64,000 nt of DNA from Zingiber officinale (Eukaryota; Streptophyta; Magnoliopsida; Zingiberales; Zingiberaceae), in NCBI RefSeq assembly GCF_018446385.1, contig NC_056004.1:33610492-33674491 (forward strand). Reading direction: 5' to 3'. The number at the start of each line of letters is the position of its first letter. Within the stretch, counting starts at the first letter, position 1. The notes beneath the pieces were generated by a model. It saw only the letters and a list, made by a program, of their open reading frames with translations. It did not search any database and was not told the DNA's origin. The translations under genes were made by a program, and so were the position numbers. Below, one piece after another: positions 2,713 to 53,420 of the stretch.

Positions 2713-2773
2713 TCCCCCCTCAAACTCACGATGCTACAGCTAGAAACATTGAGAGTTTGTCAGATAAAAATCA

Positions 2774-3864
2774 GAAGCGTGAAGTAGAATGAGCCTTGGT
2801 AAATATATCAGCAATCTGTAGCTTTGAAGGAACAAAAGGCAATGTGATGGTGCCAATCTGAAGATGATCACGAGTAATGTGACAATCAATTTCAATATGT
2901 TTCGTCCGCTCATGAAAAACTGAATTGCGCGTAATTTGAATAGCACTCTGATTTCACAATATAACGGAGTAGGTTGATGAAGAAAGATACCTATATCCGC
3001 AAGCAACCAACGCAACCAAACTATCTCACAAGTAGTTGAGGCCATGGCATGATACTCAGCTTCTGTGGAAGATCTAGAAATAACATCTTGCTTTTTACTC
3101 TTCCAAGAAATGAGGGAATCACCAAGAAAAATGCAGAAGCCAGTGGTAGATTTACGATCCGTAGGATCACCAGCCCAATCCGCATCAGAGTATGCATGCA
3201 GCTCAAGAGATGAAGTAGAAGAAAATAAAAGGCTTTGAAATTGAGTGCCCCGAAGATACCTAAGAATACGAAGAACAGTAGCCCAATGAACTGTAGTTGG
3301 TGCAGTGACAAATTGACTAACCACATGAACAACATACGCAATATCTGGACGAGTCACGGTGAGATAAACTAAGCTTCCAACAATAGTTCTGTACAAACTA
3401 GGATCCGACAAAGGTGAGCCATCAGATGGAGAATATCGATCATTAGTCTCAATAGGAGTATCAACAACTCTATTATCAGTAAGACGAGCACGCTCAAACA
3501 TGTCAGATATATATTTTGACTGAGATAAAAGATAACCTTTTGGAGAATAAGCAACCTCAATGCCCAGAAAGTAGCGTAGTATACCCAAGTCTTTCATAGC
3601 AAAACAATGAGCCAACTCAGACTTCAAAAAAGTAATTTCATCAGAATCATCATCAGTAATAATCATGTCATCAACATATAACGATAAAAGAATACGACCT
3701 GCACTCGTACATATGATAAATAATGCTGAATCATAATTACTAGGATGAAAACCAAACGAAGTAATCGCTATAGAGAACTTCTCAAACCAAGCACGAGGTG
3801 CTTGTTTGAGACCATAAAGCGCTTTATGAAGCCTGCAAACTTCACCAGGTTGATGTGAAATACC
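2774..3864 (-). pseudogene. C1 reverse transcriptase C-terminal part and RNase H
   Basis: Minus-strand copia polyprotein segment. The catalytic loop SLYVDDMIIT is near 3680, followed by MKDLGILRYFLGIEVAYS, the TRPDIAYVV block, and the RNase H segment SDADWAGDPTDRKSTTGFCI and SRSSTEAEYHAMA. One base is missing around 2953, just after the LYC(D) RNase H codons. Beyond it the expected continuation, including [18 protein letters not shown] and the terminal FTKA region, is in another frame up to a stop near 2774. The upstream end is cut by E1 at 3865; the remaining reverse transcriptase resumes at 10952. Confidence 0.85.
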
Positions 3865-4827
3865 AGGAGTGTTGGTGCAACCTTAGGTCAAGGTTGACCT
3901 GGTTGACCCGACTCGAGGTGACTTGACTCGAGTTGTATTTTGATGTTTGACTTAGGAAGATTGTCGGTGCAACCTTAGGTCGAGGTTGACCTAGTTGAGT
4001 CGCATGTTGATGTTTGACACTCGTGAGAGAGTTCTATTCTTGATGTTTGACAAGAATAGGTGTTTGGAAGATTGTAGGTGCAACCTTAGGTCAAGGTTGA
4101 CCTGGTTGACCTGATTCGGGAAAAGTCCAAGCAGGGAGCTTGGCACGCGAAAAGTCCAAGCATGGAGACTTTGGAAAAGTCAAGCGAGGAGCTTGCGCGA
4201 AAAGTCAAGTATAGAGACTTGGCGGGAAAAGTCCAAGTATGGAGACTTGGCAGGAAAAGTCCAAGTATGGAGACTTGGCTGGAAAAGTCCAAGTATGGAG
4301 ACTTGGCGGAGAAGTCCAAGCAGGGAGCTTGGCACGAGGAAAGTCCTAACTGGGATGTTAGGCACTGGAAAGTGGTGAGTGAAGCCAGGCGGTGGGAAAG
4401 TCCTAACTGGGATGTTAGGCGGTGTGGAAAGTCCAGTGAGTGAAGCCGGGCGGTGGAAAAGTCCTAACTGGGATGTTAGGCGGTTGGAAAGTCTGGTGAG
4501 TGAAGCCGAGGCGGTGAGAAAGTCCTAAGCGGGATGTTAGGCGGTATGGAAAGTCCGTGAGTGAAGCCGGGCAGGAAAAATCCGGATGGATCAAGGGTGA
4601 TCGGACATCGGTGATGGGAAGTCCAAGTAGGTCATAGGAGTGACCGGATACTTGCACGAAGAGGAAAGTCAAGTGGGTCAAAGGAATTGACCGGACACTT
4701 GGTGGGAATTCTAGCAGGTCAAGAGTGACCGGATGCTAGGAATGAAGTACCAACAGTCGAGGTTGACCGAATGTTGGTTTGGAAGGCTTGGGACTTGGCT
4801 TGGGCAAAACCAAGTCACTAGTTATCT

Positions 4828-5057
4828 GATCGGTGCGGACCGATCGGTGATCGATGGCAGCGAGAAGGCGCTGATCGGTGCGTGGACCGATCGGAGCTCC
4901 GATCGGTCGTGGCGGCCGTCGAGGCGATGTCGCGAAGGGGCCGAGTTGGGATCGATGCGTGGACCGATCCGGTGTCTTTGATCGGTCCACAGACCGATCA
5001 CGCTTATGCTTAGCCTGATCGGTCCAGGGAACCTCTGATCGGTCCTGGGGACCGATC
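4828..5057. promoter_or_regulatory. Palindrome cluster upstream of the E1 TATA box
   Basis: At least five copies or variants of GATCGGT...ACCGATC lie in 230 bp: 4828-4845, 4873-4892, 4950-4969, 4980-4999 and 5037-5057, plus a half site at 5017-5024. A perfect 24-bp palindrome spans 4885-4908. The nearest copy ends about 39 bp before the TATA box. The 3' LTR has the equivalent cluster starting at 10094. The position suggests binding sites for a dimeric factor or a hairpin-forming control element; that role is inference. Confidence 0.6.
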
Positions 5058-5095
5058 ATTGCAACGGCTAGTTTCTTCGCTGTCTTCTTCGCAGG

Positions 5096-5102
5096 TATAA
5101 AG
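5096..5102 (+). promoter_or_regulatory. TATA box of the E1 LTR promoter
   Basis: TATAAAG follows the palindrome cluster and precedes a pyrimidine-rich stretch. The same motif is at 10394-10400 in the 3' LTR. Transcription would start roughly 30 bases downstream and read into gag. Confidence 0.65.
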
Positions 5103-5646
5103 GGGTCGAGGGCTGCTGCTGCACTACTTCTTCTTCCTCTTCTCTTCTTCTACAGAGTTGCTGTTCTGGTGCTTGAGCTTTGTTGAGCTCTTCTTCACAA
5201 GCTTCGCGTGAGCTTCTCGACTGGGATATGGTGTTCTGAGGAGCTGCTGCTTCAACGAATCCAGTCGGCGAGGAGGCAAGAAAACCTGTGTTTTTACATT
5301 TATTGTTCTTGTCTTCTTGTATTTCTTGTTGTATTCCTTTCTTGCTGTTGCAAGAATATTGTGGCGAGGTTTCTCCACCCACAAGGAGTATATTGTATTA
5401 GCCGGTTTTCCGGGGACTCATCCACCGACGGATTGATAGGCTTCGTCCACCTTACGGACACGCCGAGGAGTAGGAGTTTCATCTCCGAACCTCGTTACAT
5501 CGACGAGTTGAGGTTTGGTTTGTTCTCCTGTTTTCTTTCTGCATTTAGTTTCCGCTGCTAACCTAATTTGTAGAAAGAAACGAGCAAAGATTTGGGGTCG
5601 GCTATTCACACCCCCCCTCTCTAGCCGTACGAAGGATCCTAACAAG

Positions 5647-5662
5647 TGGTATCAGAGCGAGG
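5647..5662 (+). other. E1 primer-binding site
   Basis: TGGTATCAGAGCGAGG, two bases after the 5' LTR, is the usual plant copia site complementary to the 3' end of initiator methionine tRNA. Confidence 0.85.
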
Positions 5663-5705
5663 CCGCTCTTCGACGGATCAACACCCGGGGGAGCACGGGC
5701 TAGAG

Positions 5706-7187
5706 ATGGATCTCTATGGAGAAGATATCACGATTCAACCCTTCTACGAGTCTCACGACAACTTCACGTATTGGAGGGTAAGGATGATGTATTTTCTTAG
5801 GACTAATATGTTAAATTGGTTTTGTGTACAAGAAGGGTTTTCCCCTCTGATGGATGAGGAAGGAAAACCTATCAAGAAGAAGGAGTGGACGAAAGAGCAA
5901 ATCCGACAATCCGAAATCAATGACGAGGTAACAAAAATTATTGAATTTGCGTTACCTAATAATGTTTTGTGCAAGATAGATAGGTACAACAACGCCAAGG
6001 AGTTGTGGAACAACTTGGCCAAGTTTCATGAGGAGAGCTCCACTTCAAGCCATGAAGATGAGCCTAGTGAGCCAAGTAGCTCACATCATGGAGGGAGCGA
6101 ATTGAGAGTTGAGGGCTACTCAACATCCAAGGAAGAAGAGGAGGAGAGTTCCTCTTGTTCAAGTTCAGAGCAAGAAGAAGAAGTTTCCACCTCCGGAAGG
6201 GTTGAAGAAGAAAGCTCATCTCCACCCTCAACCCTAGGTAACTCAAGCAATTTAAGTTCAATTAAATTACACATTATGTGCTTTGAGTGTAGGGAACATG
6301 GACATTACAAGAGTAAGTGTCCAAAGAGGGTAAGAAAGACTCCACCGGCGCCAAAGGTCAAGGAAGCCGGAGTCCCGAAACGCAAGGGCAAGGAGCACAT
6401 CGTGTGCTTCCAATGCAAGCAAAGGGGACACTATAGGAGCCATTGTCCGAGGGGGAGGCAACCTCACAAGGGCAAGAGACCGGGCACAACGATAGGGGGA
6501 GCTAAGGCAAACCCTAAGGTAACCTCTAAGGTTCATTATTGCAATTCTAATAAAACTCATGCTAGTAGTTTTGTTGCAATTGTTAATAATGATAAGCATG
6601 TTAACTTTAGGAACCAATACATGTGCTTAGGAGCTAAACATGTTAGCCTAGGTAAGGATAACACTAGAAATACCAACCCTAGGATTAACGCTTCTAAAGT
6701 TAAGGAAAACCTAGGTAGAAATCCCAAGAAGACTAGACACATGCCTAGGAATATCTCAAGAGAAAATGACAAATTAAAACTTGAGGTATTAGAGAGAGAA
6801 AATCAAGTCTTGAGGTCAAGACTTGATAATTTAGAAAAGGCTCTTAAAAACATGGAGAAGTCATCTCTAGGGTTTAAGAGTCAAAAACTCAAGTCCAAGG
6901 ACAAGAAAGGTTTGGGTCACAAACCTAAGTCCCAAATGGTCAAGCCCACTTACCACAATGTTCCATTCGATTATGGAACAAAACCTAGGGCTAGGAAGAC
7001 CATTACCAAGGTTACAAGGGGAGTCACCCCTATAGTTGACCTTGACGAGACCCAAATGACCAAGGCTTCAAAGCCTAAGAGGGCCATTAGGAGGGTTGCT
7101 AGGGAAGTCATCCCTAGTGAATATTCAGTGAACCCAATGAGCTCAAATAGGTATTGGGTTCCTAGGAGCATCTTCTCTACCCCATAA
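5706..7187 (+). CDS. E1 Gag-like protein with two zinc knuckles, no capsid core
   Basis: 493 residues from the ATG at 5706; the open frame runs back into the primer-binding site, so upstream starts are unlikely. The N-terminus resembles the DUF4219-type Gag start: PFYESHDNFTYWRVRMMYFL, then EWTKEQIRQSEINDE and NAKELWNNLAKFHEE. Where copia Gag normally continues into the UBN2 capsid-like domain (compare E2), this protein jumps at about residue 110 into a Ser/Glu-rich acidic linker. Two CCHC knuckles follow: CFECREHGHYKSKC near residue 195 and CFQCKQRGHYRSHC near 237. Then come a basic region, a predicted coiled coil (ENDKLKLEVLERENQVLRSR, about 360-390) and a basic C-terminus with NRYWVPRSIF. 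The frame is fully open, unlike the other coding regions of retroelements here. It could bind RNA and be packaged by another element's capsid; that is inference. Confidence 0.85.
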   Translation: MDLYGEDITIQPFYESHDNFTYWRVRMMYFLRTNMLNWFCVQEGFSPLMDEEGKPIKKKEWTKEQIRQSEINDEVTKIIEFALPNNVLCKIDRYNNAKELWNNLAKFHEESSTSSHEDEPSEPSSSHHGGSELRVEGYSTSKEEEEESSSCSSSEQEEEVSTSGRVEEESSSPPSTLGNSSNLSSIKLHIMCFECREHGHYKSKCPKRVRKTPPAPKVKEAGVPKRKGKEHIVCFQCKQRGHYRSHCPRGRQPHKGKRPGTTIGGAKANPKVTSKVHYCNSNKTHASSFVAIVNNDKHVNFRNQYMCLGAKHVSLGKDNTRNTNPRINASKVKENLGRNPKKTRHMPRNISRENDKLKLEVLERENQVLRSRLDNLEKALKNMEKSSLGFKSQKLKSKDKKGLGHKPKSQMVKPTYHNVPFDYGTKPRARKTITKVTRGVTPIVDLDETQMTKASKPKRAIRRVAREVIPSEYSVNPMSSNRYWVPRSIFSTP

Positions 7188-9131
7188 ATGGGTTAGAGAG
7201 TGTCAACTCCAATAAGAAGGGTAGTTAACCCAACTTTGAGGAAATTGACACTCAAGGAGCATTTTCAAGGTTTTGTGAACCTTTGAAAATGAAAAGGAAT
7301 TATCGTTTACTCCTTGAAGAGTAAATTGTGCCATATTTGAAAAATATCGATTTTAATCTTATTTGGCACAATTTAAGAAAACCTAGAGAAATACCATAAT
7401 TGAGATTTTGATTTTCTCTTAGGGATATATGGGCAATCTAGGGTTAGATTTTAAGTTAGCAAAGGCTAAGGATACTTAGATAGGGAATTTAGGTATTTTA
7501 TTTGTACTAACTTGCCATGATTGGTTGCCATATGCCATGCCATGACATCATATTTATTTTATTATCATTTGAAATGTTATGATAATGCTTAGGTTATCTA
7601 TATGTCATGTTTATTTAAGTTTTCAAACTTTATGCCATGACATCATGACATTGGCACATGTTTTTACTTATGATATCATTTTATGCCATGTTATCATCTC
7701 TTGCATTAATAATCAATGAAATTGATTTAAGGATGAAAAACACATTTTGATATTGAGATCAAATTTGTGTTTAGAAAATGCATGAGACCTTAGTCTAAGA
7801 TACCTAAACCCATATCTCACATCAACATTGACTTGGATGTGTTTGATACACTTTAGATGTATGTGAGATATTAGGATCATGAGTTAGGATCAAGGTGCAT
7901 AGTTTTTGTACCTAGATGAGCCTAATTCAAGAAATGAAGGATCATAGGGAAAGCTTGTGTACAAGTCATGTACATCTAGCCCTAAGATTATGGTCCTAAA
8001 TTCAAATAGTTTTAAAAGCATTTTAAAATTGATTTGAAAAACCTTGATGAAGCTTTCCTAGTGATAGCATTCATCATTGAACATTGTGATACAAAATTGA
8101 CTTAACTTTGAACTATTTCAAAGTTTTCGAATTTTGTATCAAAATTTGAAAATGGAAACTATTTTCATAGAAAATTATTTTTCCATGATAGTATATGTTA
8201 TGAGGAATGTATCCTCAAAATTTTACAATTTTTCAAATTTTCTGGAATTTTCTAGGAGTTTCTGAATTTCGGGAAGGAAATTTCAGAAAACTGACTATCA
8301 GAGTCTGGATCGGTCTGGGGACCGATCCAGGTAAGTTCTGATCGGTCTGCGGACCGATCCAGAGTATTGTGGATCGGTCTGCGGACCGATCCAGTGAGTT
8401 CCAGTAGCACGAGTGCGATCTGGTGAAGGGCTGATCGGTCTGGGGACCGATCAGAGCGTGCCAGTTTCTGATTTTCAGCTGTTGGTATGAAATTTCAGCT
8501 GGAAGTTGGGTTTTGTGGATTACTAATGGTTTGAAACTCTCCAAGACATTGTTGGTGCAATAGTCAAGGGGGAGTTGACCTTTAGGGGGAGTTTTTACCT
8601 AATTGTCAAGGGGGAGTTGACTTTTAGGGGGAGTTGACTTTTAGGGGGAGTTTTTACTCCTTAAGACTTTTGAGGATTAGTGATATGGGATTATCACTAA
8701 GTTGATTGTTGAGTTTAGTATCAAGGGGGAAATTAAGAGTTTCAATGAAAGGTATGGGACTTTCATTAGGAAGAAACTCTTGACCTTGATACCCTCCTTT
8801 TTCTTTTTGATGTGTGTCAAAAAGGGGAGAGTGTTCATTTGAGAATTATTTGGAGATCCCAAGTTAGGTTATCGGGTTAACCTAAGCTAGGGAAAGAATG
8901 TCAAGGAATGTTCAAGAAAAGAACATTGAAATTCTTTTTGATGTGTGTCAAAAAGGGGGAGAATTATTGGAGAACCCAAGTTAGGTTATCGGGTTAACCT
9001 AAGGGGAGAATGTCCAGAGAATGTTCAAGGAAAAACATTGGACATTGGAAGATGGTTGGAAAACCTAAGTTAGGTTATCGGGTTAACCTAACTTGATTAT
9101 GGGTTTTGTCAAACATCAAAAAGGGGGAGAT
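7188..9131 (+). other. E1 internal non-coding region
   Basis: No long ORF. 7520-7700 has repeated ATGCCATGACATCAT-type words. 8305-8452 has four near-identical copies of GATCGGTCTGSGGACCGATC. 8567-8660 has short repeats of a TAGGGGGAGTTGAC type. 8860-9090 has three copies of GTTAGGTTATCGGGTTAACC, which contains an inverted GGTTA/TAACC. The polypurine tract closes the region. Position suggests a packaging, RNA-structure or regulatory role in place of pol, but no function is shown. Confidence 0.7.
8305..8452. repeat. Internal palindrome cluster of E1
   Basis: Four copies at 8308-8327, 8340-8359, 8372-8391 and 8433-8452, spaced 32, 32 and 61 bp. The first has 11-base perfect arms (8305-8315 and 8320-8330) around TGGG. 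It uses the same GATCGGTC/GACCGATC arms as the LTR cluster. Confidence 0.85.
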
Positions 9132-10946
9132 TGTTGGTGCAACCTTAGGTCAAGGTTGACCTGGTTGACCCGACTCGAGGTGACTTGACTCGAGTTGTAT
9201 TTTGATGTTTGACTTAGGAAGATTGTCGGTGCAACCTTAGGTCGAGGTTGACCTAGTTGAGTCGCATGTTGATGTTTGACACTCGTGAGAGAGTTCTATT
9301 CTTGATGTTTGACAAGAATAGGTGTTTGGGAGATTGTAGGTGCAACCTTAGGTCAAGGTTGACTGGTTGACTGATTGAAAAGTTCGAGCGTGGCACGCGA
9401 AAAGTCCAAGCATGGAGACTTGGCACGGAAAAGTGCAGGTTGACCTGAAAAGTCCAAGTATAGAGACTTGCAGGAAAAGTCCAAGTATGGAGACTTGGCA
9501 CGGAAAAGTCAAGTATGGAGACTTGCACGGAGAAGTCCAAGCGGGGAGCTTGGCACGAGGAAAGTCCTAACTGGGATGTTAGGCATTTGGAAAGTCCCGT
9601 GAGTGAAGCCAGGCGGTGGGAAAGTCCTAACTGGATGTTAGGCGGTGTGGAAAGTCCTGGTGAGTGAAGCCAGGTGGTGAGAAAGTCCTAACTGGGATGT
9701 TAGGCGGTTGGAAAGTCGTGAGTGAAGCGAGCGGTGAAAGTCCTAACTGGGATGTTAGGCGGTTGGAAAGTCCCGTGAGTGAAGCGGTGAGAAAGTCCTA
9801 GTGAGTGATGTTAAGCAGGTAAAGTCCCGTGAGTGAAGCCGGGCAGGAAAAATCCGGATGGATCAAGGGTGATCGGACATCGGTGATGGGAAGTCAAGTA
9901 GGTCATAGAGGACGATACTTGGCACGAAGAGGAAAGTCCAAGTGGGTCAAAGGAATTGACCGGACACTTGGTGGAATTCAGCAGTCAAGGAGTGACCGGA
10001 TGCTAGGAATGAAGTACCAACAGTCGAGGTTGACCGAATGTTGGTTTGGAAGGCTTGGGACTTGGCTTGGGCAAAACCAAGTCACTAGTTATCGATCGGT
10101 CTGCGGACCGATCGGCAGGGATCGACCAGGAGGCGCTGATCGGTGCGTGGACCGATCGAGAGCTCTGATCGGCCGTGGCGGCCGTCGAGAGGCGATGTCG
10201 CGAAGGGGCCGAGTTGGGATCGGTGCGTGGACCGATCCGGTATAGCTTTGATCGGTCCACGCCGATCGAGTCGCCTGAAGGTTACGTGCCGGTGATCGAT
10301 GCGGGACCGATCGGTAGCGAACTGATCGGTCCACAGATCGATCAGGGTACGGCTAGATTCAGCGGCTAGTTTCTTCACTGTCTTCTTCGCCGGTATAAAG
10401 GGGTCGAGAGCTGCTGCACTACTTCTTCTTCCTCTTCTCTTATTCTATGCCGCTGTTACGGTGCTTGAGCTTTGTTGAGCTCTTCTTCACAAGCTTCGCG
10501 TGAGCTTCTCGACTGGGATATCCTGCTGTTGGAGGTGTTCTGAGGAGCTGCTGCTTCAACGAATCCAGTCGGCGAGGAGGCAAGAAAACCTGTGTTTTTA
10601 CATTTATTGTTCTTGTCTTCTTGTATTTCTTGTTGTATTCCTTTCTTGCTGTTGCAAGAATATTGTGGCGAGGTTTCTCCACCCACAAGGAGTATATTGT
10701 ATTAGCCGGTTTTCCGGGGACTCATCCACCGACGGATTGATAGGCTTCGTCCACCTTACGGACACGCCGAGGAGTAGGAGTTTCATCTCCGAACCTCGTT
10801 ACATCGACGAGTTGAGGTTTGGTTTGTTTTGTTTTCGTTTCCTTTTGTTATTTCCGCTGCTAACCTAATTTGTAGAAAGAAACGAGCAAAGATTTGGGGT
10901 CGGCTATTCACACCCCCCCTCTCTAGCCGTACGAAGGATCCTAACA
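9132..10946 (+). repeat. 3' LTR of E1
   Basis: Same start, end and module order as the 5' LTR, with differing numbers of short units (9385-9840), the palindrome cluster from 10094 to about 10343, and TATAAAG at 10394. Many short indels separate the two LTRs in the repeated part, while the leader part is nearly identical. Confidence 0.9.
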
Positions 10947-10951
10947 AGGAG

Positions 10952-16833: not shown

Positions 16834-17976
16834 CTATGAAGGTGGTGCGGTCGGTTGGCGTAAAAGCGCAATCAACGCCTCCGCCTGTAAAAAAATTTGA
16901 AAAAAAATAAATATTTTAATTTTTTTTTACTAAATGTCCGCTAAAGGAAATAATTTATGCGTTCGAGTCGAAACACCGAATCAGGTCGGAGGTGAGCTTA
17001 CCTTCTCCTTCGTCTTCTCCGAGGAGGACTGAACCAGAGCTACGACTGGCGGAATGCCGCCCTCGCGGACTACCATCCTTCGGTACCCAGCGCCCTCCTT
17101 GCATATTTCGAGAAGCGATAGCATCGACACTTCCTTCTGCCGGCGGGTCCCGACCTCCACCATCTCCACCAGCACAGGTACGCCGCCCTCCGCCACCGCT
17201 GCCCTACGCCCCTCCTGCAACGACAACACCCGGCGGAGCACGTATGCCGCCTTGTCCACCATCCCAGACTCCGGATCGGCCATCAGATCCAGAAGGGGGC
17301 GCACCGCTCCGGCCTCCACTGCCCGGGTCATGTTCTCCTTCGCAGCTAAGAGGGCGAAGAGGGCGGTGGCGGCGTCCTTCTTCCCGCGGGGTCCGCCTGT
17401 CTCGAGGAGGGAGACGAGGGCTGGGATGGCACCCGAGCAGCCGATAGCGGCGCGGAGGTCGTCGCGCTGGGCGAGGCGGAGGAGGGCGCAAGCGGAGTTC
17501 TCACGGGCAGCGGGGGTGCCGAAGCGGAGAGCGAAGACGAGGTGGCGGATGGCGCCGGCACCGGCGATGGCGGATTTGTTCTCATCGCAGAGGGAGAGGT
17601 TTAAAATAGCGGTGACGCCTTGCTCCTGGATCCGAGGATCGGGGTGGGAGAGGAGGGCGACGAGGGGAGCGACGGCGCCGGCGCGGGCGATACGGACGCG
17701 GTTCTCGGGGCTGTGCTTGGCGAGGAAACGGAGCTCCGTTGCGGCGAGGCGCTTGGATTCGATGGAGGGCGAGTCAAGGTCGGCGATGAGCTTGCAAATG
17801 GCGTCATCGGAGCATTCGGCGGCGGAGTGGACGAGGAAGCGATGGAGGGAGGAGGAGCAGCTTGTTTGACACCGGACGAGTGGGGAATCGTCGGAACGGC
17901 GGCTATTGCAGTCGCTGTAGCTCCGGGTGATGCGGGGAAGAAACTCCGGCGGTCTCTCCACCACCATCACTTCCAT
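16834..17976 (-). CDS. ARM-repeat protein, U-box 4-like without a U-box (two exons)
   Basis: Minus-strand gene. Exon 1 runs 17976-17002 (325 codons) and ends GAGAAG before a canonical GTAAGC donor. The 117-bp intron (17001-16885) ends TTTTTTTACAG. Exon 2 (16884-16834) adds AEALIALLRQPTAPPS and a TAG, giving 341 residues. The join is in phase 0 and the last helix completes the final ARM repeat as in relatives, which supports the model over a read-through ending in VSSPPT. Residues 1-50 are a Ser/Arg-rich leader. From about residue 58 there are tandem armadillo repeats with typical signatures such as AGAVAPLVALLSHPDPRIQE, NLSLCDENKSAIAGAGAI and SGAIPALVSLLE. Relatives of the plant PUB4/SPL11-like group act as protein-binding scaffolds in ubiquitin or signalling pathways; no U-box is present, so E3 activity is not expected. 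The GC-rich coding sequence contrasts with its AT-rich flanks. It is the only intact host gene seen. Confidence 0.9.
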
Positions 17977-18060
17977 TGGATCTGTCGACCGAGCTAATCG
18001 GGCGGTTGAACAATGGAGGTTTCTCAGAGGAAGAAGGGGCGATGAAGAGAGATGAGACCA

Positions 18061-20279: not shown

Positions 20280-22543
20280 TGTCACGCCCTGGGAGAGTCC
20301 CTGCCAGAGGAAATTTCGGCAGCATCTCTCCTGTATGGGTGACAATATGAAACTTATCTACATAGCCCTCAGGACTCACAAACCTCGGCCAACACGGCCG
20401 GAACATAAATAATAAAATATGATAAACAATCCACGCAGTTTAATAATAAAGCAGCCTTCGGCTGACACAACCACGCAGTTTAAAATATAACCTACTTCAC
20501 TACTCGAGAAAAATACAATCCACAACGGAAAACCATCGCAGCAGAAAATCAAAACACAATATAAAAATCCTCGAGTACAACCACACATCACAAGTATGTA
20601 GGAACATAACAAGGAAACCAAAAGTCCAAAAATAGAAAACCGTCGCGACTCGAAGTGGGGACTAGCGACTGGAACCTCCTGACAGCATCAACCTGAAATA
20701 GGAAAATAAAACCACGGGCTGAGTCCAAGAACTCAGCGGATACCAAGATGACATGCATAGTACAATATAACCAATAATAATCATCATGCCGTACCGTCTC
20801 CTGGACAAAAGTTAGAAATACTAAACTGAAAAGACAGGAGAAACTATACTCACCAGGGCCTCTATCCTGACATAAAGGTCGTCAGACCAGATACCTCATG
20901 TCTTCTGTATGCATGTCAATCATATGCAACCCAAATAAATGCATCATCCAAAATGCAGCAATCACAAACAATAAATGCAATCTATGCATATGATGCAAAT
21001 GACTTGGTCACCCTTGACGCCAGTCAACCATCTCACACACGATGGTGAGACTGAGTGGGTAGGACTATGATAACTGTGCACTCTGCCATCACTACTCCTG
21101 AGTGATCGAGTGGACAAGATGCTGTCGGAGTACATCTATCCTCCTACCCCAAATCATAAGTGGGGAAGCTCAATACTCTCATCTCCCTGAGACAGTCCAG
21201 AGGAGGGATCCCTATCTTGTTACCACACTGCGTTATCACTACTCATGAGTGGGCTAGTAGAGCCCTTGACAGAGCAACCTGTTGCAACACACCCTGCCTG
21301 ATATACCACTAACCCATGAGTGGTTGTGTGTGCATATCCATGTAACTGGTGATGTGCTCAACAATAATGGAGCCGACAATCGCCCAACATGCAATCATGC
21401 AAGATGGTGCATGACACTAAACATGAAAATCCTGACACCTCCATAATATATACCAAAAGATAAAGAAATCCAACAAGGATCTAAGTATTATGAAATTAGG
21501 TACACATGTCGATATGTCTAGTAACTAGTCATGAACACAGTAAGACAATGTATGCCACTACTTATATGATCACAAGTATACATGGCAAGAACAAAATAAT
21601 ATAAGTCTAAATGCATACAGATAATAACAAACAAAGGCATGTTATAGGTATCAAGTAGTGATATACCCAAAACAAAGATAAACATAATTATTACTAGTGA
21701 CCATAACCTACTACGCATATCAAAATGTCGTTATTAAAAGAGATAAGTCAAGGTACTCACCTCAAAAGAATGTCGTATCTGATAGATTCCAAGTCGTGAT
21801 GTTGTCTCAAATAGAGCCTGCATCAAAGTATTTTATTTAGCTAAATTCCTTTGAATTAAATAGCTAAATAAAATCCCCCACACTAGTTAGGGAAACCCTA
21901 ATCAAATAATTAACCTAATTCAATAATCCAATTAGGTTTAACTAAATCCATAATATCCACAATTCCTTCACTTCAATCCACTCTCATTCCACCATATGAA
22001 AATCAACATTTCAGTAAACACACTTAATCCAATACAAATTTGGTTCCAACAAATCCATTCAACTACTACCACAGTTACTTCAACAATTAAGCATTCAAAA
22101 ATCTATAAAATTCTCAATGCTAATACCCTCACCTCTGTAGGGGATTGGTGGTCGGCTAGAAGGGGGGTTGGATAGATGACATCCCCAAATCGTTCGCTTC
22201 CTACGTATTTGTTAGTGCACAATGAAATCTAATACTAAATACAAACATGAAAGCTAAAGACTAAAGACAAGGAAAGAAATGCAAACCGCTAACATGTTCG
22301 TTTACGTGGTTCGGAGATAACTTGCTCCTACTCTACGGCTGTTCATAAGGTGGAAGATCCCTCAATCCGTCGGTGGATTAATCCCCGGCAAACTCCAGCT
22401 TTCTCAAGTCGCTCCTTATGGGTAGAGAAACCTCATCACAACACTAATCAAGACTCTTGAGACACTAGGGCACTAGTAGACTACTAATAGTGGTTAACCA
22501 CCTCTATTTCGTCAACCTTAACAAAGCTTCCAATGCTTGGTTA

Positions 22544-23775
22544 TGTTGGTGCAGGAAGCATCCGACGATCGAACTCGTGTTTTGATAATGGCAAAGAATT
22601 CAAAGTTAAGATGTTTTGTAGTCTAACAAGTCTACTTGAGGATTTCAGGAAAGTCCTAGCTGCGGTTAGGCAAAGGGAAAAAACCCTAGGAGGTGGTAAC
22701 CCTATGCGGAAAGTCTTGGTAGGTCGATGTCTTCAGGCAAAAGTCCTAGGGGGTGGTAACCCTAGGTGGAAAGTCCTGGTGTCGCGAACCAGGTGAAAGA
22801 CTGGACTAGTCGGGGAAGCGGATGTCCAGCAGAAAGTCCGGAAGCATCGAGTGCTGAGCAAAAGTTCAGTCGATCTGGAGGATCGCACTGGCAACAGGTA
22901 AATCTCCTGAGTGGAGTAGGTGAGGACGCGTTCGCCGTAGAGGGAACAGTAGGCGTCGGGTCGACCTAGGGTTTTCGATTGGAAACCCGAAGTCAGACTC
23001 GGATAGTCCGGAGACTGTCTATACTTCATTTATCATGTTTACTGTGCTAACTTTGTGTTGCAGGATAGTGTTTGGGACTAACGTATCTTGCAGGTGCAAA
23101 GGAGCAACCTAAAGCCTCGGATGAATAGTGTCCGAGGCGCCTCCATGGAGCTTGGAGGCGCCTCGGGCGCAAAAGCTGAGCTGGCTGCGAAGCAACACTG
23201 GAGGCGCCTTGAAGCAGGCAGAAGGCGCCTTGGAAGGCGCCTTGAGTGAGGTTTAAGGCGCCTTAAGCAGATGAACTTTGACCAGATCAGATTTGATCCA
23301 CGCGGAAGACCAGGCAGCATGGAGGAGCCTTGAACAGCCTTCAAGGCGCCTTGAACACCCTTTATAAGGGGGTTTCGACCAGCACTTCAATCAATCAAGT
23401 TCCAGGCCTTCTTCCTTCAACGTGCTGCTAACAAAGTCATTCCGAAGTGCTGCTGCAACATTTCGACGACCCGGAGCTTCGTTTTTCTCTTTTTTAAGTT
23501 GTCGGTACAAAGTTATTCTAAATTGCTGTTACAGTTGTAATTTGTAATTCTTATCGAGCTTATAGTTGTTTCCCACCGGAAGCGATCAAGGATCGCGGGC
23601 CTTCGAGTAGGAGTCGCCTCAGGCTCCGAACGAAGTAAATCTCCGTGTCCTTCTGTTTGTGTTTGTTTGTTTTAATTCCGCTGCTTTAATTACTCTAACG
23701 CTGTTTTCGATTCTGATACGTACAAAATAGCCACGAGCACTATTCACCCCTCCTCTAGCGCGTCTCGATCCAACA
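22544..23775 (+). mobile_element. S1: solo LTR of an E1-like family
   Basis: 1232 bp, starts TGTTGGTGCAGGAAG, ends CTCGATCCAACA, TSD GGTTA at 22539-22543 and 23776-23780. It has GGAAAGTCCT/CCTAGG modules like the E1 LTR, a GGCGCC palindrome cluster (23134-23353), a TATA-like TTTATAAGG at 23360 and a leader related to the other gag-only families. No internal region is present. Confidence 0.88.
23134..23353. promoter_or_regulatory. AAGGCGCCTT palindrome cluster upstream of the S1 TATA box
   Basis: Copies or close variants at 23134-23143, about 23155-23164, 23201-23210, 23222-23231, 23234-23243, 23253-23266 (14-bp perfect palindrome) and 23342-23353 (12-bp perfect palindrome). The last copy ends about 7 bp before the TATA-like motif. 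Confidence 0.65.
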
Positions 23776-24450
23776 GGTTATATAGGCCACGAGTTGGAAA
23801 ACCCCGCCTACCAGTCAATTGCCAATACCATTAGTTGACTGCCCTCTGTGGAGAATCGATCGTTACAACTCAACGGCTCGATACCAATCGACTGATACTT
23901 CCATCAGTCGACTGCTCCATGCTAACCGAGAGAACAGAAGCATTCTGTTCGCTTCTAGTCGACTGCCTGGTCGACTGTACCAATCGACTGATGAAAATAC
24001 GAGTCGATTGCTATAGTAACTGCTACAATACTACTACAGTAATTGCTACAGTAACTCCTACAGTAAAATCCTGAACTTAGGATTTTACTCTAAGTACAAT
24101 CTCTCATGCACTCGTACCCTCACGATTCACTTGACCCTTCATTACAACCACCTCTAGCCTTCAAGTCTACTTCCTTTGGCTCTCGTCCCTCGGATGCATC
24201 AAAGCCCACGGCTCGTCCCCAATACCATCCGTCGTGTATGCCTCGAAGTCGCTTCCCTCGGCCCTTGTCCACGGTCCCTCGGATGCTCCATCCTTCACCG
24301 GACCCGAAGCCATCAAGCTGAGTCATATGTGTATCCTACAAACCTGCACACTCACATACACCTATCAAATAATAAGGGCGAACCTAACTCAAACCCTTTA
24401 CCCAAACACCAAAACACATGGTCACACGGACCATTGTGATTGCTCCAACA

Positions 24451-25451
24451 ATCTCTCCCTTTTTGATATTTGGTAATACGTTTAAGTTAGGGAAAACATA
24501 ATAGTAAATAAACATGCTAAAACAAATGGACTTACATTGCCAAAGCTACACACTTGGACTTACACCGCCGAATGAACTTATGTTGCCAAGGCTACACACT
24601 TGGACTTACATCGCCAAATAAAAAATAATGCAACATGCATTGGAACCTATCACAAGACTCCCCCTACACCTAAGCTCCCCACTGAGCTAGGAATTTTACT
24701 ATAGGGCTATTTAAGAACTTATCACAAGGCTCCTCCTATACCTATGCTCTCGAGCTAGGATTTTCACCACTACAAAGGTATTTTCAGGTTTTTCCAACTA
24801 AACCTTACTTCTCCCCCTTTGCCTAACATTAAAAAGCTTCCAACAATATCTCAATTATTGAAACTTATCATCAAAACTGACCATAAACTCGTGTATTTAT
24901 CCCCCAAGGATCTCATATACCTATACGAGTTATCCTGGTCAAAATCAGTGCTAAAAACGGTTTCAGACTGGTATCAGTCGACAGTCATAAGTACCAGTCG
25001 ATTGCCCTCATCAAAATGAGCTTACAGAGACATTCTGCGCTCAAAAACACTGTTACCTGTCGACTGATAACTATACCAGTCGACTAGTACACTATTTCTG
25101 TAAAAATCAACCTTTCTGACCCAACTTCAAAAATGCACCAGAAATTCCACAGACCTCCAAAAATTCTCAAATTTTATGGAGAGGTCTATTTTATCAATGT
25201 CTACTTGAAAAAAATATATATAAAAATATATTTATCATAAATCCCAAGATTGATATAAAATCCAAAACTAACTATGTGGTTCAATTGAACCTTAACCTAA
25301 AGTCCTAGTTTTGGCTTCTTCTTGATGTATTTGCCCATACTAACCTACAATGCATCCCTAGCATTGGTTTATATGACATCTATATATCCAAAACTAATTA
25401 TCATACTATATGACCCTAATGTCATATTTCTAAACATGAAACATAAACTAA
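24451..25451 (-). other. H internal non-coding region near the 3' LTR
   Basis: No long ORF. Palindrome words around CAGTCGACTG or one-base variants lie at 24968-25085. The flanking AT-rich sequence on the minus strand resembles the corresponding stretch of E1 and E2. Confidence 0.6.
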
Positions 25452-26117: not shown

Positions 26118-26486
26118 GTTATTGTTGGTGCAATCGACCTAGGTTTTGATGTGTGTCAAAGAGTTTAAGTTAGACTTTCACATGTATTTGATATGTGTTT
26201 GAGTCTTGCAGGACTTGGAGAAATACATGTGGAACTTGGTACGGCCAAGTGTGGGAAGCTCATCCAAGGGCTCGGATCGTTGAGTCAGTGAAGGGTGGTG
26301 TGGAAGACATCCGAGGGACCGCAGGACGAGGAGCAATGGAGTGGAGCCGAGGGAAGTGGACTTTAAGGCAACGTGAAGGATGGCACGGAGAGGAGCCGCG
26401 GGCTCGGGTGCATCTGAGGGACGAAAGCCGAGGAAGAGAACTTCAAAGGCGACTCCAGAAAGGATGAGAGGAGTGAATGTACTGGG

Positions 26487-26695
26487 ACCAGTCGACTGGT
26501 AATGGGACCAGTCGACTGATCCAGCTTCACAGAATGCACAGAAGCATTCTGTGCTTGTCGGCTACGGGGACCAGTCGACTGGTCCTGAGACTAGTCGACT
26601 GGTGCATAGCCGTTGGCAGAATTTAGTTTTCTGCAGAGAGCCGTTGGCTGGGTCCAACGGCACACCAGCCGACTGGTGCTTGGACCAGTCGACTG
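26487..26695. promoter_or_regulatory. CCAGTCGACTGG palindrome cluster upstream of the E2 TATA box
   Basis: Six copies or one-base variants: 26488-26499, 26508-26518, 26571-26582, 26591-26602, 26665-26676 and 26684-26695. The 3' LTR has the equivalent set at about 30198-30385. Confidence 0.65.
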
Positions 26696-26736
26696 GTGTC
26701 GGGGTTTGAATTGATTGTTGGTCAACTCTCTCCTCT

Positions 26737-26743
26737 TATTTAA
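26737..26743 (+). promoter_or_regulatory. TATA-like box of the E2 LTR
   Basis: TATTTAAGG sits about 40 bp after the last palindrome. The same word is present in the 3' LTR (about 30426) and in S2 (52439). Confidence 0.5.
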
Positions 26744-27220
26744 GGGATGCTTTGAGGACTTGAAGAAGGTGACTGGTGCTAATTGTAAACCTTCTTAGTC
26801 TTGCCCAAAGCTTCCAAGTTCAATTCTCTTCCTCCTAATCTAAACTCTATCTTGTAAAGAGGAAGAGATCATCTTGTGAGAGGTTTGCTCCACCGAGAAG
26901 GAGAAGCTCTAGCCGGAGATTACCGAGGATTGATCCACCAAAGGATCAAGGGCTCGTCCACCTCAAGGACACGTCGTGGAGTAGGAGCATCATCTCCGAA
27001 CCACGTTACATCGAGCGTGTTAGCATTTGTGTTCTTGTTTATTTTTCATTGCTTTAGTTTTAGTATATTTCTCTGTGCACTAACCCTCTTATAGAGAAGA
27101 AATCGATTAGGGGGTGACTGAGCTATCCAACCCCCCTTCAAGCCGGCCACTGATCCTCCAACATTTGGTATTAGAGCGAGGTTAGAATCGGAAGAACTAA
27201 CCGTCGACCAAAGCATCAAG

Positions 27221-28872: not shown

Positions 28873-29831
28873 AGGATTTTAGGTCAAGTCAACTATGGAA
28901 GTCATAATTCCAATTTTTCCTATATGGTTGACTTGAGACCTTAAGGGGGAACACTTAGCATTGTTAGAATTTCATGATTAAGAGGGCTAAGTAGAAGTTA
29001 CCTTTATCTCACAATGACTTGTCTTCTTTTCTAACCATAAATGTGAGATATTAGGATGATACAAATAATTCACATATGCTTATGGCATTTTGATGAGTTA
29101 TGTGATGTATCAATTTTTAGTGATCATAGACCAACTATAGGGAAAACAAATGTTTAATTAATGGACATCTTGCTCATAGATCATAGTTGGACATTTTAAA
29201 TGTTTTGAAAATAGTACTATGTTCTATTTACTGTGGAATAGTTATATTGAAACATATGATTGCAAAACTAGATTTCAATTTGGTACAAACTTGCATGTTT
29301 TTGAGACTTTTTGAGATTTGGTCAAAATTTAAAAAATACTTTGACTTTTCATGAAAATATATTTTTCCTAGTTAAAGGATATGTCAAGGAATATGTGTGC
29401 AAAATTTCATGATTTTTTGAATTTTCTGAAATTTTGTATGTATTTCTGAAGTTGGACTCAGAAGGCTGAAATTCGAGTTCAGCATGTATCAGTCGACTGT
29501 GACAGGTACCAGTCGACTGGTACCAGCCTTCCAGCACTCTGAGGGTTTCTGAAATCAGGTTTTTGGTCCAAAATTGGTTGGAATTGATACCATAGTATGT
29601 GTATGTGTCTGGTACAATATTTTTGATGGTGTCAAAGGGGGAGAAAAGGGAAGGTTAAGTTAGTAACCTACTTGGTTTACTTGTGTGCAAATCTTTGAAA
29701 ATTAAGGTTGAGAGCATGTGTTAAGGGGGAGCTTGGGTTTTATGCTTCATGTTTACATATTGCTTCAAATTTTCAAAGTTGTTATTTATGCCTAACTTAA
29801 ACATATTGCCACACATCAAAAAGGGGGAGAT
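28873..29831 (+). other. E2 internal non-coding region
   Basis: No pol ORF. CAGTCGACTG-type palindromes occur at about 29488-29523, followed by TTTCTGAAATCAGG, in the same setting as the palindromes of E1 (about 8305-8485). The polypurine tract ends the region. Confidence 0.65.
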
Positions 29832-30853
29832 TGTTGGTGAAATCGACCTAGGTTTTGATGTGTGTGTCAAAGAGTTTAAGTTAGGCTTTCACATGTATTT
29901 GATATGTGTTTGAGTCTTGCAGGACTTGGAGAAATACATATGGAACTTGGTGCGGCCAAGTGTGGGAAGCTCATCCAAGGGCTCGGATCGTTGAGTTGGT
30001 GAAGGGTGGTGTGGAAGACATCCGAGGGACTGCAGGACGAGGAGCAATGGAGTGGAGCCGAGGGAAGTGGACTTCAAGGCAATGTGAAGGATGACATGGA
30101 GAGGAGCCGCGGGCTCGGGTGCATCTGAGGGACGAAGGTCGAGGAAGAGGACTTCAAAGGCGACTCCGGAAAGGATGAGAGGAGTGAATGTACTGGGACC
30201 AGTCGACTGATCTAGCTTCACAGAATGCACAGAAGCATTCTGTGCTTGTCGGCACGGGGACCAGTCGACTGGTCCTGAGACCAGTCGACTGGTACATAGC
30301 CGTTGGCAGAATTTGGTTTTCTGCAGAGAGCCGTTGGCTGGGTCCAACGACACACCAGTCGACTGGTGCTTGGACCAGTCGACTGGTGTCGGGGTTTGAG
30401 TTGATTGTTGATCAACTCTCTCCTCTTATTTAAGGGATGCTTTGAGGACTTGAAAAAGGTGACTGGTGCTAATTGAAAACCTTCTTAGTCTTGCCCAAAG
30501 CTTCCAAGTTCAATTCTCTTCCTCCTAATCTAAACTCCATCTTGTAAAGAGGAAGAGATCATCTTGTGAGAGGTTTGCTCCACCGATAAGGAGAAGCTCT
30601 AGCCGGAGATTGTCGGGGACTGATCCACCAAAGGATCAAGGGCTCGTCCACCTCAAGGACATGTTGTGGAGTAGGAGCATCATCTCCGAACCACGTTACA
30701 TCGAGCGTGTTAGCGTTTGTATTCTTGTTTATTTTCCATTGCTTTAGTTTTAGTATATTTTGCTGTGCACTAACCCTCTTATAGAGAAGAAATCGATTAG
30801 GGGGTGACTGAGCTATCTAACCCCCCTTCAAGCCGGCCACCGATCCTCCAACA
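29832..30853 (+). repeat. 3' LTR of E2
   Basis: Nearly the same sequence as the 5' LTR. It is about 20 bp shorter because one spacer between two palindromes is missing. It ends GATCCTCCAACA. Confidence 0.9.
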
Positions 30854-41833: not shown

Positions 41834-42905
41834 TGTAGGGGATCAGTGGCTGGCTAGAAGGGGGTTGGATAGATGACACCCCCAAATCGTTCGCTTCCTA
41901 CGTATTTGTTAGTGCATAACGGAAATCTAATACTAAATACAAATATGAAAGCTAATGACTAAAGATAAGGAAAGAAATGCAAACCGCTAACACGTTCGTT
42001 TACGTGGTTCGGAGATAACTTGCTCCTACTCCACGGCTGTCCGCAAGGTGGAAGATCCCTCAATACGTTGGTGATTTAATCCCCGGCAAACTCCGGCTAT
42101 CTCAAGTCACTCTTTGTGGGTGGAGAAACCTCACTACAACATCAACCAAGACTCTTGAGATACTAAGGTACTGGAAGACTACTAATAGGGATTAACCACC
42201 TCTATTTCGTCAATCTTAACCAACCTTCCAATGCTTGGTTATATAGGCCACGAGTTGAAAAACCCCGCCTACCAGTCGACTGCCAAAACCATCAGTCGAC
42301 TGCCCTCTGTGGGGATTTGACTGTTATAACCCAATGGCTCGATACCAGTCGACTGATACTTCCATCAGTCAACTGCTCCATGCTAACCGAGTGAATAGAA
42401 GCATTATGTTCGCTCCTAGTCGATTGCCCGGTCGATTGTACCAGTCGACTGATGGAAATACAGTCGACTTCTACAATAACTGCTATAGTACTACTACAGT
42501 AACTGCTACAGTAAAACCCTAAACCTAGGATTTTACTCTGAGTACAATTTCTCATGCACTCGTACCCTCACAACTCACTTGACCCTTCATTACAACCACC
42601 TCTAGTCTTCAAGCCTACTTGCTTTGGCTCTCGTCCCTCGGATGCATCCAAGCCCGTGACTCGTCCCCAATGTCATCCTTTGTGAATGCCTCGAAGTCGC
42701 TTCCCTCAGCCCTTGTCCTTGCTGCCTTGTCCACGGTCCCTCGGATGCTCCATCCTTCATCATACCCGAACCCATCAAACTGAGTCATATGTGTATCCTG
42801 CAAACCTACACATTCACATACACATATCAAATAACAAGGGTGAATTTAACTTAAACCCTTTACCGAAACACCAAAACACATGGGACCATTAGGATTGCTC
42901 CAACA
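41834..42905 (-). repeat. 5' LTR of H
   Basis: TGTAGGGGATCAG to GCTCCAACA on the plus strand. On the minus strand CAGTCGACTG words lie at 42273-42282, 42293-42302, 42346-42355 and about 42442-42451, with variants between. They lie upstream of TATATAA at 42245-42239. The leader between 42239 and 41834 resembles that of E1 and E2. Confidence 0.9.
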
Positions 42906-51147: not shown

Positions 51148-53420
51148 TGGAGGAAGCTGAAAAAATCACCATGGTTACTTTAACACAAGAGGAGCTGGAG
51201 ATGATCATTAATGCTCAGGTGCAAAAGGCATTGTAGTAGCAACAACAAGCCGCTACTAGTAGTACATTGCCACCACCAAATACTGTGACATCCACAATAG
51301 CTCACTAGAGAGAGAGGGGAGCTCAAGAGGAAGTCCCCCATTTTCTTTGTGCACCCCCTCACCAATCCAGCATCCTCGAAAACTTTTTTGTACACCCCTC
51401 GACCATGTGGATCCAGAGGAACTACGCCAAGAATCCTCTAGAGAAGTATCTGTTTGAGAAGGGCGTAAAGGAAAAGCTCGATTGACTGATAGCTCTCCTT
51501 AGCAAATTAGTTCCCCATTCTCTCAGCGGATGCTAGATAATAAGTTGCCAAAACATTATCAGGCCTTAAACATAGGAGAGTACTCGGGATCAACTGATCT
51601 AGAAGATTATCTCCTTAAATTCGAACATGCTACCCTCCTTCTATAATTTACGGATGGTGTAAAGTGCTGAATGTTCCTCACTACATTCGACAATTTAGCA
51701 TAACGATGGTTCAAGCGATTGTCGGACAACTCCATTCGTCGGTTCAAGGATTTTCGCAAAGGTCCTTCTGCATCACTTCTCCAACAATTAGCGTTATCAT
51801 AAGACCCCCTGAAGCCTCTTTTCACTCAAGCATGGGCCTAAGGAGACTCTTAGAGCTTATATTAAGAGATTCAATCAGGTGGCTATAGAAGTCTTTGTTG
51901 GTGCAATCGACCTAGGTTTTGATGTGTGTGTCAAAGAGTTTAAGTTAGACTTTCATATGTATTTGATATGTGTTCGAGTCTTGCAGGACTTTGTGAAACA
52001 CATGAGAACTTGGTGCGGCCAAGTGTGGGAAACTCATCCAAGGGCTTGGATCCTTGAGTCGGTGAAGGATGGTGTGGAAAAACATCCGAGGGACCGCCGG
52101 ACGAGGAGCAATGGAGTGGAGCCGAGGGAAGCGGACTTCAAGGCAACGTGAAGGATGGCATGGAGAGGAGCTGCGGGCTCGAGTGCATCTGAGGGACGAA
52201 GGCCGAGGAAGAGGGCTTCAAAGGCGACTCCGGAAAGGATGAGAGGAGTGAATGTACTGGGACCAGTCGACTGGTCATGGGACCAGTCGACTGATCCAAC
52301 TTCACAGAATTCACAGAAGCATTCTGTGCTTTCTGCAGAGAGCCGTTGGCTGTGTCCAACGGCACACCAGTCGACTGGTGCTTGGACCAGTCGACTGGTG
52401 TCGAGGTTTGAGTTGATTATTGATCAACTCTCTCCTCTTATTTAAGGGATGCTTTGGGGGCATTAAGGAGGTTACTGATGCATATAGATTAACTCCTATT
52501 CTGTGCCCAAAGATCCTAAGTCAATTCTCTTCCTCCCAATCTAAACTCCATCTTGTAAAGAGGAAGAGAACCTTTGTGAGAGGTTTGCTCCACCGAAAAG
52601 GAGAAGCTCTAGCTGGAGATTGCCGGGGACTGATCCACCGAAGGATCAAGGGCTCGTCCACCTCAAGGACACGTCGTGGAGTAGGAGCATCATCTCCGAA
52701 CTACGTTACATCGAGCGTGTTAGCATTTGTATTCTTATTTGTTTCTAATTGCTTTAGTTTTTATATTTCCGCTACGCACTAACCTTTTGTAGAGAAGAAA
52801 TCGATTTGGGGGTGGCCTAGCTATCCAACCCCCCCTTCAAGCCAGCCACCGATCATCCAACAATCTCCACAGCTACGACAGAATTTTGGTGAGCACTTTT
52901 TTTCAAGGGTTTGCCGATAACGACTTCTTTCGTGATATGGTGAGAAGACCTCCATGGAACTTTGATCCACTACTCGATAGTGTGACTAACTTCATCAATG
53001 TGGAAGAATCACAAGCCGCTCAGAAAAAGGAGGCCACCCCACCTGCCTCAACTCCAACCTCCGAGCACCCGACTCTACCTGCTCCTCAGCCTAAAGGGCC
53101 TCGGGCAGGTCTTCAGTTTCATCACCAAGAAATATAGCCTCAGGCCGTGCAACATGTAGAGATCCCCCGAGAGCCGAGAGGCACCGAGCCGGTGGTGTAT
53201 ATATCATTGGTTAGCTATGCATAATACTCAGGAGTGTTACTCTATGAGAAATCACCAAAATCCCAATCTGAGATTTTGTTGGCACAACCCATCGCCCAAT
53301 CACCACCTTTATCGATGACCAGATGGTTTTCCCAGGAGAAATCAGTGAGAAATCGAGCTCCGCCAGAGAACATCTCCATCACCATTAAACCGGGCGCAAG
53401 TTCCAGCCTGGGTTCAACCT
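51148..53420 (+). pseudogene. Gypsy gag, split by S2
   Basis: Begins MEEAEKITMVTLTQEELEMI and reaches stops after about 28 residues. Further on, KHYQALNIGEYSGSTDLEDY, TTFDNLA*RWFKRLSDNSIR and FNQVAIEV match the Retrotrans_gag core. After S2 the sequence resumes with VSTFFQGFADNDFFRDMVRR and VTNFINVEESQAAQ, then a Pro-rich tail. Numerous stops. Confidence 0.75.
51896..52862 (+). mobile_element. S2: solo LTR of the E2 family
   Basis: 967 bp, same start and end as the E2 LTRs (TGTTGGTGCAATCGACC, ending CATCCAACA), no internal region. Shorter than the E2 LTRs mainly because about 70-85 bp between the hairpin and the CTGCAGAGAG segment, including two palindromes, are missing. TATTTAA is at 52439-52445. 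Flanks GTCTT (51891-51895) and ATCTC (52863-52867) differ from a possible original GTCTC by one base each. The surrounding gag reads through the insertion point, supporting it. Confidence 0.85.

Follow-up and report, generated by a model that had tools for sequence, protein, structure and literature searches.

Palindromic repeat clusters upstream of the TATA box in Sirevirus-like LTR retrotransposons of Zingiber officinale

In the genome of Zingiber officinale, LTR retrotransposons carry clusters of palindromic motifs upstream of the TATA box, and at least one element has a word that differs from that of its close relatives while both flanks can still be matched. The clusters are the RM boxes of Sireviruses, i.e., palindromic repeated motifs, and hence the kind of feature is already known (Bousios et al., 2010; PMC2829016). 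The initial annotation, which knew of no named feature of this kind, has to be corrected on this point. The explanation that we prefer, tentatively and as one slightly more apt to be wrong than right, is that RM clusters are exchangeable putative binding sites for a symmetric factor that would control the LTR promoter, hairpins and small RNAs then being a by-product.

Sireviruses abound in many plant genomes; the 2010 paper left the role of the RM box open. With copies in the tens of thousands, with four classes and with an LTR (one at least) whose class is not that of relatives alignable on both sides, this genome offers a natural swap experiment, which could separate explanations based on (i) a protein; (ii) RNA structure; and (iii) mutation. 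A class-specific factor, should there be one, would reveal how a retrotransposon changes its control, or escapes silencing, with its body mostly kept.

RM clusters in the window and the elements that carry them

The window, that is, the whole 64-kb stretch that was analysed, is plant DNA dense with nested retrotransposons. An inverted-repeat block of family-specific sequence precedes the TATA box in each of five elements, here called E1, E2, H, S1 and M. The feature under study is the block at 4828..5058 of the E1 5' LTR (3870..5644, plus strand; TGTTGG...CTAACA, ends placed by eye), which comprises four GATCGGTC/GACCGATC inverted-repeat dyads (one exact and three slightly departing) and a 24-bp palindrome; the TATA box (TATAAAG, 5096..5102, plus strand) starts 37 bp past it. 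On the same strand lie (i) the gag frame (5643..7187, stop to stop), with two zinc knuckles recognised by eye; (ii) the primer binding site TATCAGAGC (5650..5658); (iii) a linker RM block of the same class as that of the LTR (8305..8454, four dyads); (iv) seven copies of the polypurine tract (PPT) AGGGGGAG (8567..9129); and (v) the 3' LTR (9132..10946), with an RM block at 10093-10343.

E2, also on the plus strand, has RM blocks in its 5' LTR (26123..27163; block 26487-26697, made of CAGTCGACTG pairs 20 bp apart, with TATTTAA about 40 bp past it) and in its 3' LTR (29832..30853; block 30200-30387, which is short of the 5' LTR block by one 20-bp unit), as well as a pair in the linker (29490..29524, plus strand). 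H is a plus-strand solo LTR (51896..52862; block 52261-52399), and so is S1 (22544..23775; block 23134-23355, GGCGCC class), which is nested in M. The latter lies on the minus strand (22136-42905) and is of the CAGTCGACTG type: the block of its 5' LTR (41834..42905) is found at 42273-42470, its 3' LTR (22136..24450, with S1 inside) holds decayed RM copies at 23812-24010, and its linker (24975..25086) has two pairs with a spacing of 20 bp and one mismatch in each copy. Matching 5-bp direct repeats were read by eye for E1 (AGGAG, 3865-3869 and 10947-10951), E2 (GTTAT) and S1 (GGTTA), and none for the H solo LTR.

The palindrome clusters that had been claimed to precede the TATA box of E1, E2, H and S1 are real, being above shuffles; M is an addition to that list, as are the motif copies in the linkers. 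On both strands of the window, GATCGGTC occurs 25 times (shuffle mean 1.15), and GATCGGTC-N4-GACCGATC occurs six times (once per E1 LTR and four times in the E1 linker) versus 0 in shuffles; with at most one mismatch, CAGTCGACTG is present 32 times (shuffle mean 1.0) and AAGGCGCCTT five times (shuffle mean 1.0, shuffle maximum 4). Inverted-repeat coverage is 0.25-0.71 in 10 of 11 blocks, against shuffle means of 0.02-0.06 and maxima of 0.17-0.57, and 0 in the M linker block. Genome-wide, reversed-pattern controls gave 0 for the Sirevirus junction, for GATCGGTC-N4-GACCGATC and for CT..AG, TG..CA and mixed dyads, 0 and 7 per strand for the CAGTCGACTG pair searches, and 1 for GGTC/GATC mixed dyads; these controls and the window shuffles rule out a chance origin. 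The viral contigs searched gave 0 matches.

GC-rich palindromes number 4-7 per LTR in E2, H, S1 and the M 5' LTR and, by the same count, only 2 and 1 in E1; two other LTR pairs of the window (30946-40892 and 54585-63344) have 1, 1, 0 and 0 per LTR, and no AGGGGGAG tract at their LTRs. Loop-free palindromes of at least 10 bp in the three E1 blocks (2, 1 and 0) are not above shuffles (means 0.54, 0.58 and 0.22), and the E1 excess is confined to looped dyads. The sequence type does differ among families as proposed, but GATCGGTC itself is not a palindrome: the symmetric unit in E1 is a dyad of 20-24 bp. E2, H and M use CAGTCGACTG, mostly paired at 20 bp, and S1 uses GGCGCC with several flanks. 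The TATA box follows the end of the RM block at a distance of about 40 bp in E1, E2 and H; in S1, the distance is 5 bp. Past the TATA box, the common leader that had been described was recovered for E1 and E2 (74-75% over about 200 bp) and for E1 and H (73%), the S1 resemblance being short and seen by eye; E1 and E2 have this leader in common and differ in the RM block.

E1, E2 and M carry Sirevirus (Ty1/copia) marks, namely: (i) several AGGGGGAG tracts (linker copies: seven in E1, three in E2 and two intact ones in M); (ii) a TATCAGAGC-type primer site; and (iii) a C-rich LTR end. The C-rich integrase signal was found in both LTRs of E1 and E2, in H, in S1 and in the M 3' LTR, with no match in the M 5' LTR; a terminal AGGGGGAGATTG is present at the 3' LTRs of E1 and E2 and altered in M. 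The 5' junction of E1 (CA/AGTGG/TATCAGAGC) has the Sirevirus form CA/A[T/G]TGG/TATCAGAGC, while that of E2 (CA/TTTGG/TATTAGAGC) is two bases off, its primer site being one base off. Such a junction is not Sirevirus-specific, because an unclassified LTR pair (38442, minus strand) shares it. As for the large copia gag, the E2 frame matches copia gag (E=4e-19) plus a zinc knuckle, its best named relative being a Curcuma longa protein (46% identity); the E1 frame has the zinc knuckle only, slightly below the cut-off, and a piece of M has a zinc knuckle. M retains gag pieces only, outside the elements nested within it, and no pol frame of at least 150 aa follows gag in the internal regions of E1 and E2. 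These regions (5643-9131 and 27164-29831) resemble gag-only non-autonomous Sireviruses of a TR-GAG-like kind.

Other features were observed in the window. E1 sits inside a copia-type pol region, with flanking pieces at 2740-3882 and 11670-12823 (minus strand). The pair at 30946-40892 (minus strand) is a copia element with pol, a 5' junction of Sirevirus form (CA/ATTGG/TATCAGAGC) and a 3' LTR without the AGGGGGAG tract. A long frame at 16981-18060 (minus strand) resembles, on visual inspection, a host protein with armadillo repeats, and 61/123-bp units form a tandem array at 46659-47067.

RM classes across the genome and the replacement of a block

The genome searched (3.09 Gb, 211 contigs) holds 42,443 exact Sirevirus PPT/LTR signatures (21,117 + 21,326) and 156,429 occurrences of GATCGGTC-N4-GACCGATC. 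The first 70 Sirevirus junctions on contig 1, with no random draw, were taken as a sample, from which L051 was dropped because of a run of N, leaving 69 LTRs; at least two AGGGGGAG tracts are present in 65 of them (mean 4.2), in a sample chosen by that very signature. A class was called from at least two copies of its motif within the first 1350 bp of the LTR. Sixty-two LTRs carry a class (GGCGCC 25, GATCGATC 18, GATCGGTC/GACCGATC 15 and GTCGAC 4) and seven carry none, a proportion that is only descriptive, because the classes were defined after viewing the same LTRs; base-shuffled LTRs had a class in 10 of 1380 cases. One LTR (L017) tied between GTCGAC and GGCGCC, and was counted among the four GTCGAC LTRs and placed under GGCGCC for flank alignment.

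The classes are mostly exclusive, with on-class/off-class counts of 174/14, 97/7, 169/0 and 22/17. Eleven of the 17 off-class matches in the GTCGAC LTRs are GATCGGTC, which, in our reading, can overlap GATCGGTCGACCGATC. The linker (the 1.5 kb before the junction) carries a class in 34 of the 69 elements; 32 of these linkers stand beside classed LTRs, and the class is the same in all 32; these agreements go back to common descent in a handful of families. GGCGCC elements are mostly without linker copies (24 of 25). Among 69 clustered LTRs, those of the window included, 40 have a TATA motif at most 220 bp from the cluster, at a median of 57 bp from the last core; the other 29, many of the GATCGATC class, have no TATA motif near the block.

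The replacement of a block between alignable flanks was seen in one LTR, L052, which carries CGGTCGACCG. Its identity to L028, of the GGCGCC class, is 90-93% in the first 300 bp, 39-56% inside the block itself and 53-73% downstream; against L071, the corresponding values are 81-92%, 38-62% and 64-86%. Two further LTRs (L008 and L026) are 82-83% identical to it over the upstream 341-345 bp. The view that position is kept while sequence changes, put forward in the initial annotation, agrees with all this: type tracks family in a mostly exclusive way among the 69 LTRs, L052 differs in class from a relative with alignable flanks, and the palindromes are not absent from most family members, as 62 of the 69 carry a class. 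A separate case is L041, the first 94 bp of which are 93% identical to L052 and which has GATCGATC motifs further down, by block exchange or nested insertion.

Proximity to the TATA box, class exclusivity, LTR-linker agreement, block replacement and the fixed spacing described below suit double-stranded recognition by a symmetric factor. Under the preferred explanation, RM clusters would be arrays of putative double-stranded sites for a sequence-specific protein of symmetric build (a dimer or tetramer), encoded by either the host or the element; this protein would control the LTR promoter by (i) activation; or (ii) shielding from silencing. Each family would use one class of sites and, upon a change of partner, LTR and linker sites would switch class together, the block being replaceable inside the LTR with flanks still alignable; the host would exploit hairpins and small RNAs that arise as a by-product. 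Against this explanation count the distance of the linker copies from the LTR promoter, the lack of a TATA motif near the block in 29 of the 69 LTRs, the common descent behind the 32 LTR-linker agreements, and the choice of the classes on the same sample. We know of no factor that matches the RM classes. It is unlikely, in our judgement, that RM classes are interchangeable address labels, with LTR and linker blocks replaced together by another self-complementary class; elements, gag-only ones included, would then be recognised by one specific partner, either a DNA-binding factor or sister RNAs, and could leave one recogniser for another. No recognition code of this modular kind was found for any lineage of LTR retrotransposons in the literature searched.

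Spacing, symmetry and folding of the repeats

Spacing is fixed in several classes. Genome-wide, 22,171 of 29,410 CAGTCGACTG pairs (75%) are at exactly N10 (20 bp) among N0-N30; CGGTCGACCG is spaced at 21 bp in five of five cases, GGCGCC at 19-21 bp in 43 of 60, and GATC arms at 12 bp in 84 of 155 and 100 of 127. The palindromic cores GTCGAC, ATCGAT and GGCGCC are all CpG-centred. Helical phasing is suggestive for GATC and GTCGAC and is not established: for GATC dyads, R at 10.5 bp is 0.50 when weighted and 0.09 when each spacing is counted once, and GGCGCC has no 10.5-bp preference. Dyad-to-dyad gaps of 32, 41 and 53 bp make up 21, 7 and 7 of the 67 listed GATCGGTC gaps of 14-130 bp; these gaps approximate three, four and five turns of the helix, with no clear periodicity when each spacing is counted once.

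The two arms of a repeat change symmetrically. The inner pair of 190 GATC dyads from LTRs and linkers is G-C in 100, A-T in 84 and mismatched in 6 (i.e., complementary in 184), and 134 of the 190 are fully symmetric. Within single LTRs, flank 1 covaries (92 of 115; null mean 61.6, maximum 76) and so does flank 2 (94 of 122; null mean 68.2, maximum 82), and therefore the GATC unit is 24 bp long; there is no covariation at flanks 3 and 4, and flank 5 is borderline (p 0.065). Genome-wide, CT..AG dyads number 67,149, TG..CA dyads 47,853 and mixed ones 8,216, whereas random arm pairing would give about 60,100 mixed; copies are related, so these are counts and not events. Arms of the GGTC and GATC kinds are mixed in 5,826 + 5,709 places across the genome. 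Flank covariation was also found at several positions for the GTCGAC, ATCGAT and GGCGCC cores. The idea that any palindrome would do was rejected, since seven control 6-mers (CGATCG, GGATCC, AGATCT, TGATCA, GCCGGC, CCCGGG and CGCGCG; 10 to 121 distinct sites) had no flank covariation at p<0.05.

Arm covariation beyond the fixed motif within one LTR counts against reading by a protein, because independent half-sites predict none; such symmetric change suits hairpins or arm-to-arm copying better. Accounts of both kinds were weighed. According to the first, rather unlikely on balance, structure is what is kept: RM clusters and the upstream array would be RNA hairpins in the 3' UTR (linker plus U3 of the 3' LTR), serving stability, Gag contacts or small RNAs, and the sequence would be free as long as the arms stay complementary. 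The inner-base complementarity, the covariation of flanks 1 and 2 and the shortage of mixed GATC arms favour it, as does the folding of the RM regions beyond shuffles (z -10.0, -7.8, -8.1 and -5.6); however, folding of comparable strength is found in several other parts of the window, and the RM reverse strand folds about equally well.

Further support for structure comes from the AAAGT-led arrays that lie upstream of RM in E1 and S1 and whose units can fold back. In the E1 5' LTR (4117..4790, plus strand), units consist of AAAGT, an arm, a loop and the complementary arm, and 12 of the 21 units have 6-bp arms, of seven distinct sequences; further U3 arrays of this kind are found at 9379-10055 (E1 3' LTR) and 22650-22890 (S1). 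Taking the E1 5' and S1 arrays together, a perfect 6-bp stem recurs at one and the same position in 15 of 29 units, where 0.26 would be expected, and 10 different arms make up these stems; stem arms swapped between units with different arms fit in 11 of 196 cases; the E1 3' LTR array has a perfect stem in nine of 22 units. Over the sampled loci and E1, 18 different arms come right after AAAGT, some of them of low complexity and probably due to chance. Longer units of the E1 array contain GGTCA/TGACC repeats, which are W-box-like. No report of a hairpin array of this type was found in the literature searched. On the other side, single G.U mismatches are not clearly preferred over A.C ones (52 against 34, p=0.07, compared with 73 against 64 in control repeats), variation of the inner base is confined to five single sequences, where pairing (22 of 25) is no better than the best shuffle, and structure alone leaves the common class of LTR and linker and the fixed place by the TATA box unexplained.

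The second account needs no function at all: template switching from arm to arm, during reverse transcription or replication, would keep the symmetry, and duplication would spread it. The RM block is unstable, because the two E1 LTRs diverge most in RM (0.177) and in the array (0.108), against 0.024-0.049 in three longer other parts, and the E2 LTRs differ by one 20-bp unit. Moreover, the symmetric GATC types number only six, so that few events need explaining, and few founding events may stand behind the large dyad counts. RM substitutions are, however, not faster in E2 (0.030 vs 0.030-0.049 elsewhere), and mutation alone does not explain class exclusivity, LTR-linker agreement, the precise spacing or the place by the TATA box. 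We consider this account quite unlikely.

Comparison with known systems

Among the papers listed for the motif letters, no title concerned plant retrotransposons; the Zingiber search gave only papers unrelated by their titles, and the hairpin search gave none. The closest known system is that of the Sirevirus RM boxes, described as palindromic, repeated, clustered upstream of the TATA box, element-specific and present again in the linker (Bousios et al., 2010; PMC2829016). Here, too, LTRs carry a palindromic repeated motif ahead of the TATA box, with copies partly in the linker as well, and the Osr10 CGGTCTGACCG and Vitis CGGTCGACCG motifs of that paper resemble classes found in this genome. 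Some differences are apparent as well. The CGG-CCG core is present in GATCGGTC/GACCGATC and CGGTCGACCG and absent from CAGTCGACTG, GATCGATC and GGCGCC, which in this respect depart from the RM definition; the paper itself lists one exception without that core, Tnd-1 (PMC2829016). The definition given there also asks for at least eight copies per element, in 3' LTR plus linker, a number that is not reached throughout (about 8-9 dyads in E1, 7 in E2 (5 + 2), 7 in S1 and 4 in H), and GGCGCC LTRs average fewer than four copies (97 in 25). Besides, linker copies were reported there only alongside ENV (PMC2829016), whereas the E1 and E2 linkers have RM copies but no evident ENV frame, with no frame of at least 150 aa after gag; in 25 sampled linkers with at least three GATC arms, the longest frame from the last RM to the LTR is at most 137 aa, and ENV remnants are possible. 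The sections consulted make no mention of paired spacing, of exclusive classes, of the replacement of a block or of arms changing symmetrically.

In maize Sireviruses, hairpin formation and small-RNA matching have been reported (Bousios, 2016, as cited in PMC10760457 and PMC5311732). As far as these citing papers convey, the maize palindromes likewise form a fast-changing, palindrome-rich LTR region able to form hairpins; unlike a uniformly fast change, the RM block changes fast in E1 and not in E2.

Another comparison is with Ty3, whose RNA dimerises in vitro via a short palindrome, PAL6 (PMC11381356). PAL6 and RM are both short self-complementary words, and RM motifs might similarly be labels by which RNAs of one family recognise each other, through self-complementarity, for dimerisation or co-packaging, much as with the dimerisation palindromes of retroviruses and Ty elements. 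Copies of one class pair with themselves and with each other, the linker and U3 copies would both sit in the genomic RNA, and E1 and E2, which have no pol frame of their own, would need a partner. Nevertheless, PAL6 is one 6-nt site near the RNA 5' end, while RM comprises numerous sites of greater length, expected at the 3' end, and labels of this kind leave the proximity to the TATA box unexplained; we hold them to be very improbable.

A further comparison is with the VANC target motifs of VANDAL elements. Those quoted in PMC5735166 are non-palindromic, unlike RM, and E1 and E2, unlike VANDAL, have gag as their only frame of at least 150 aa (Pfam was run on those frames). Like RM, the VANC targets are short, non-coding, repeated motifs that differ between related elements; a sequence-specific protein reads them (PMC5735166).
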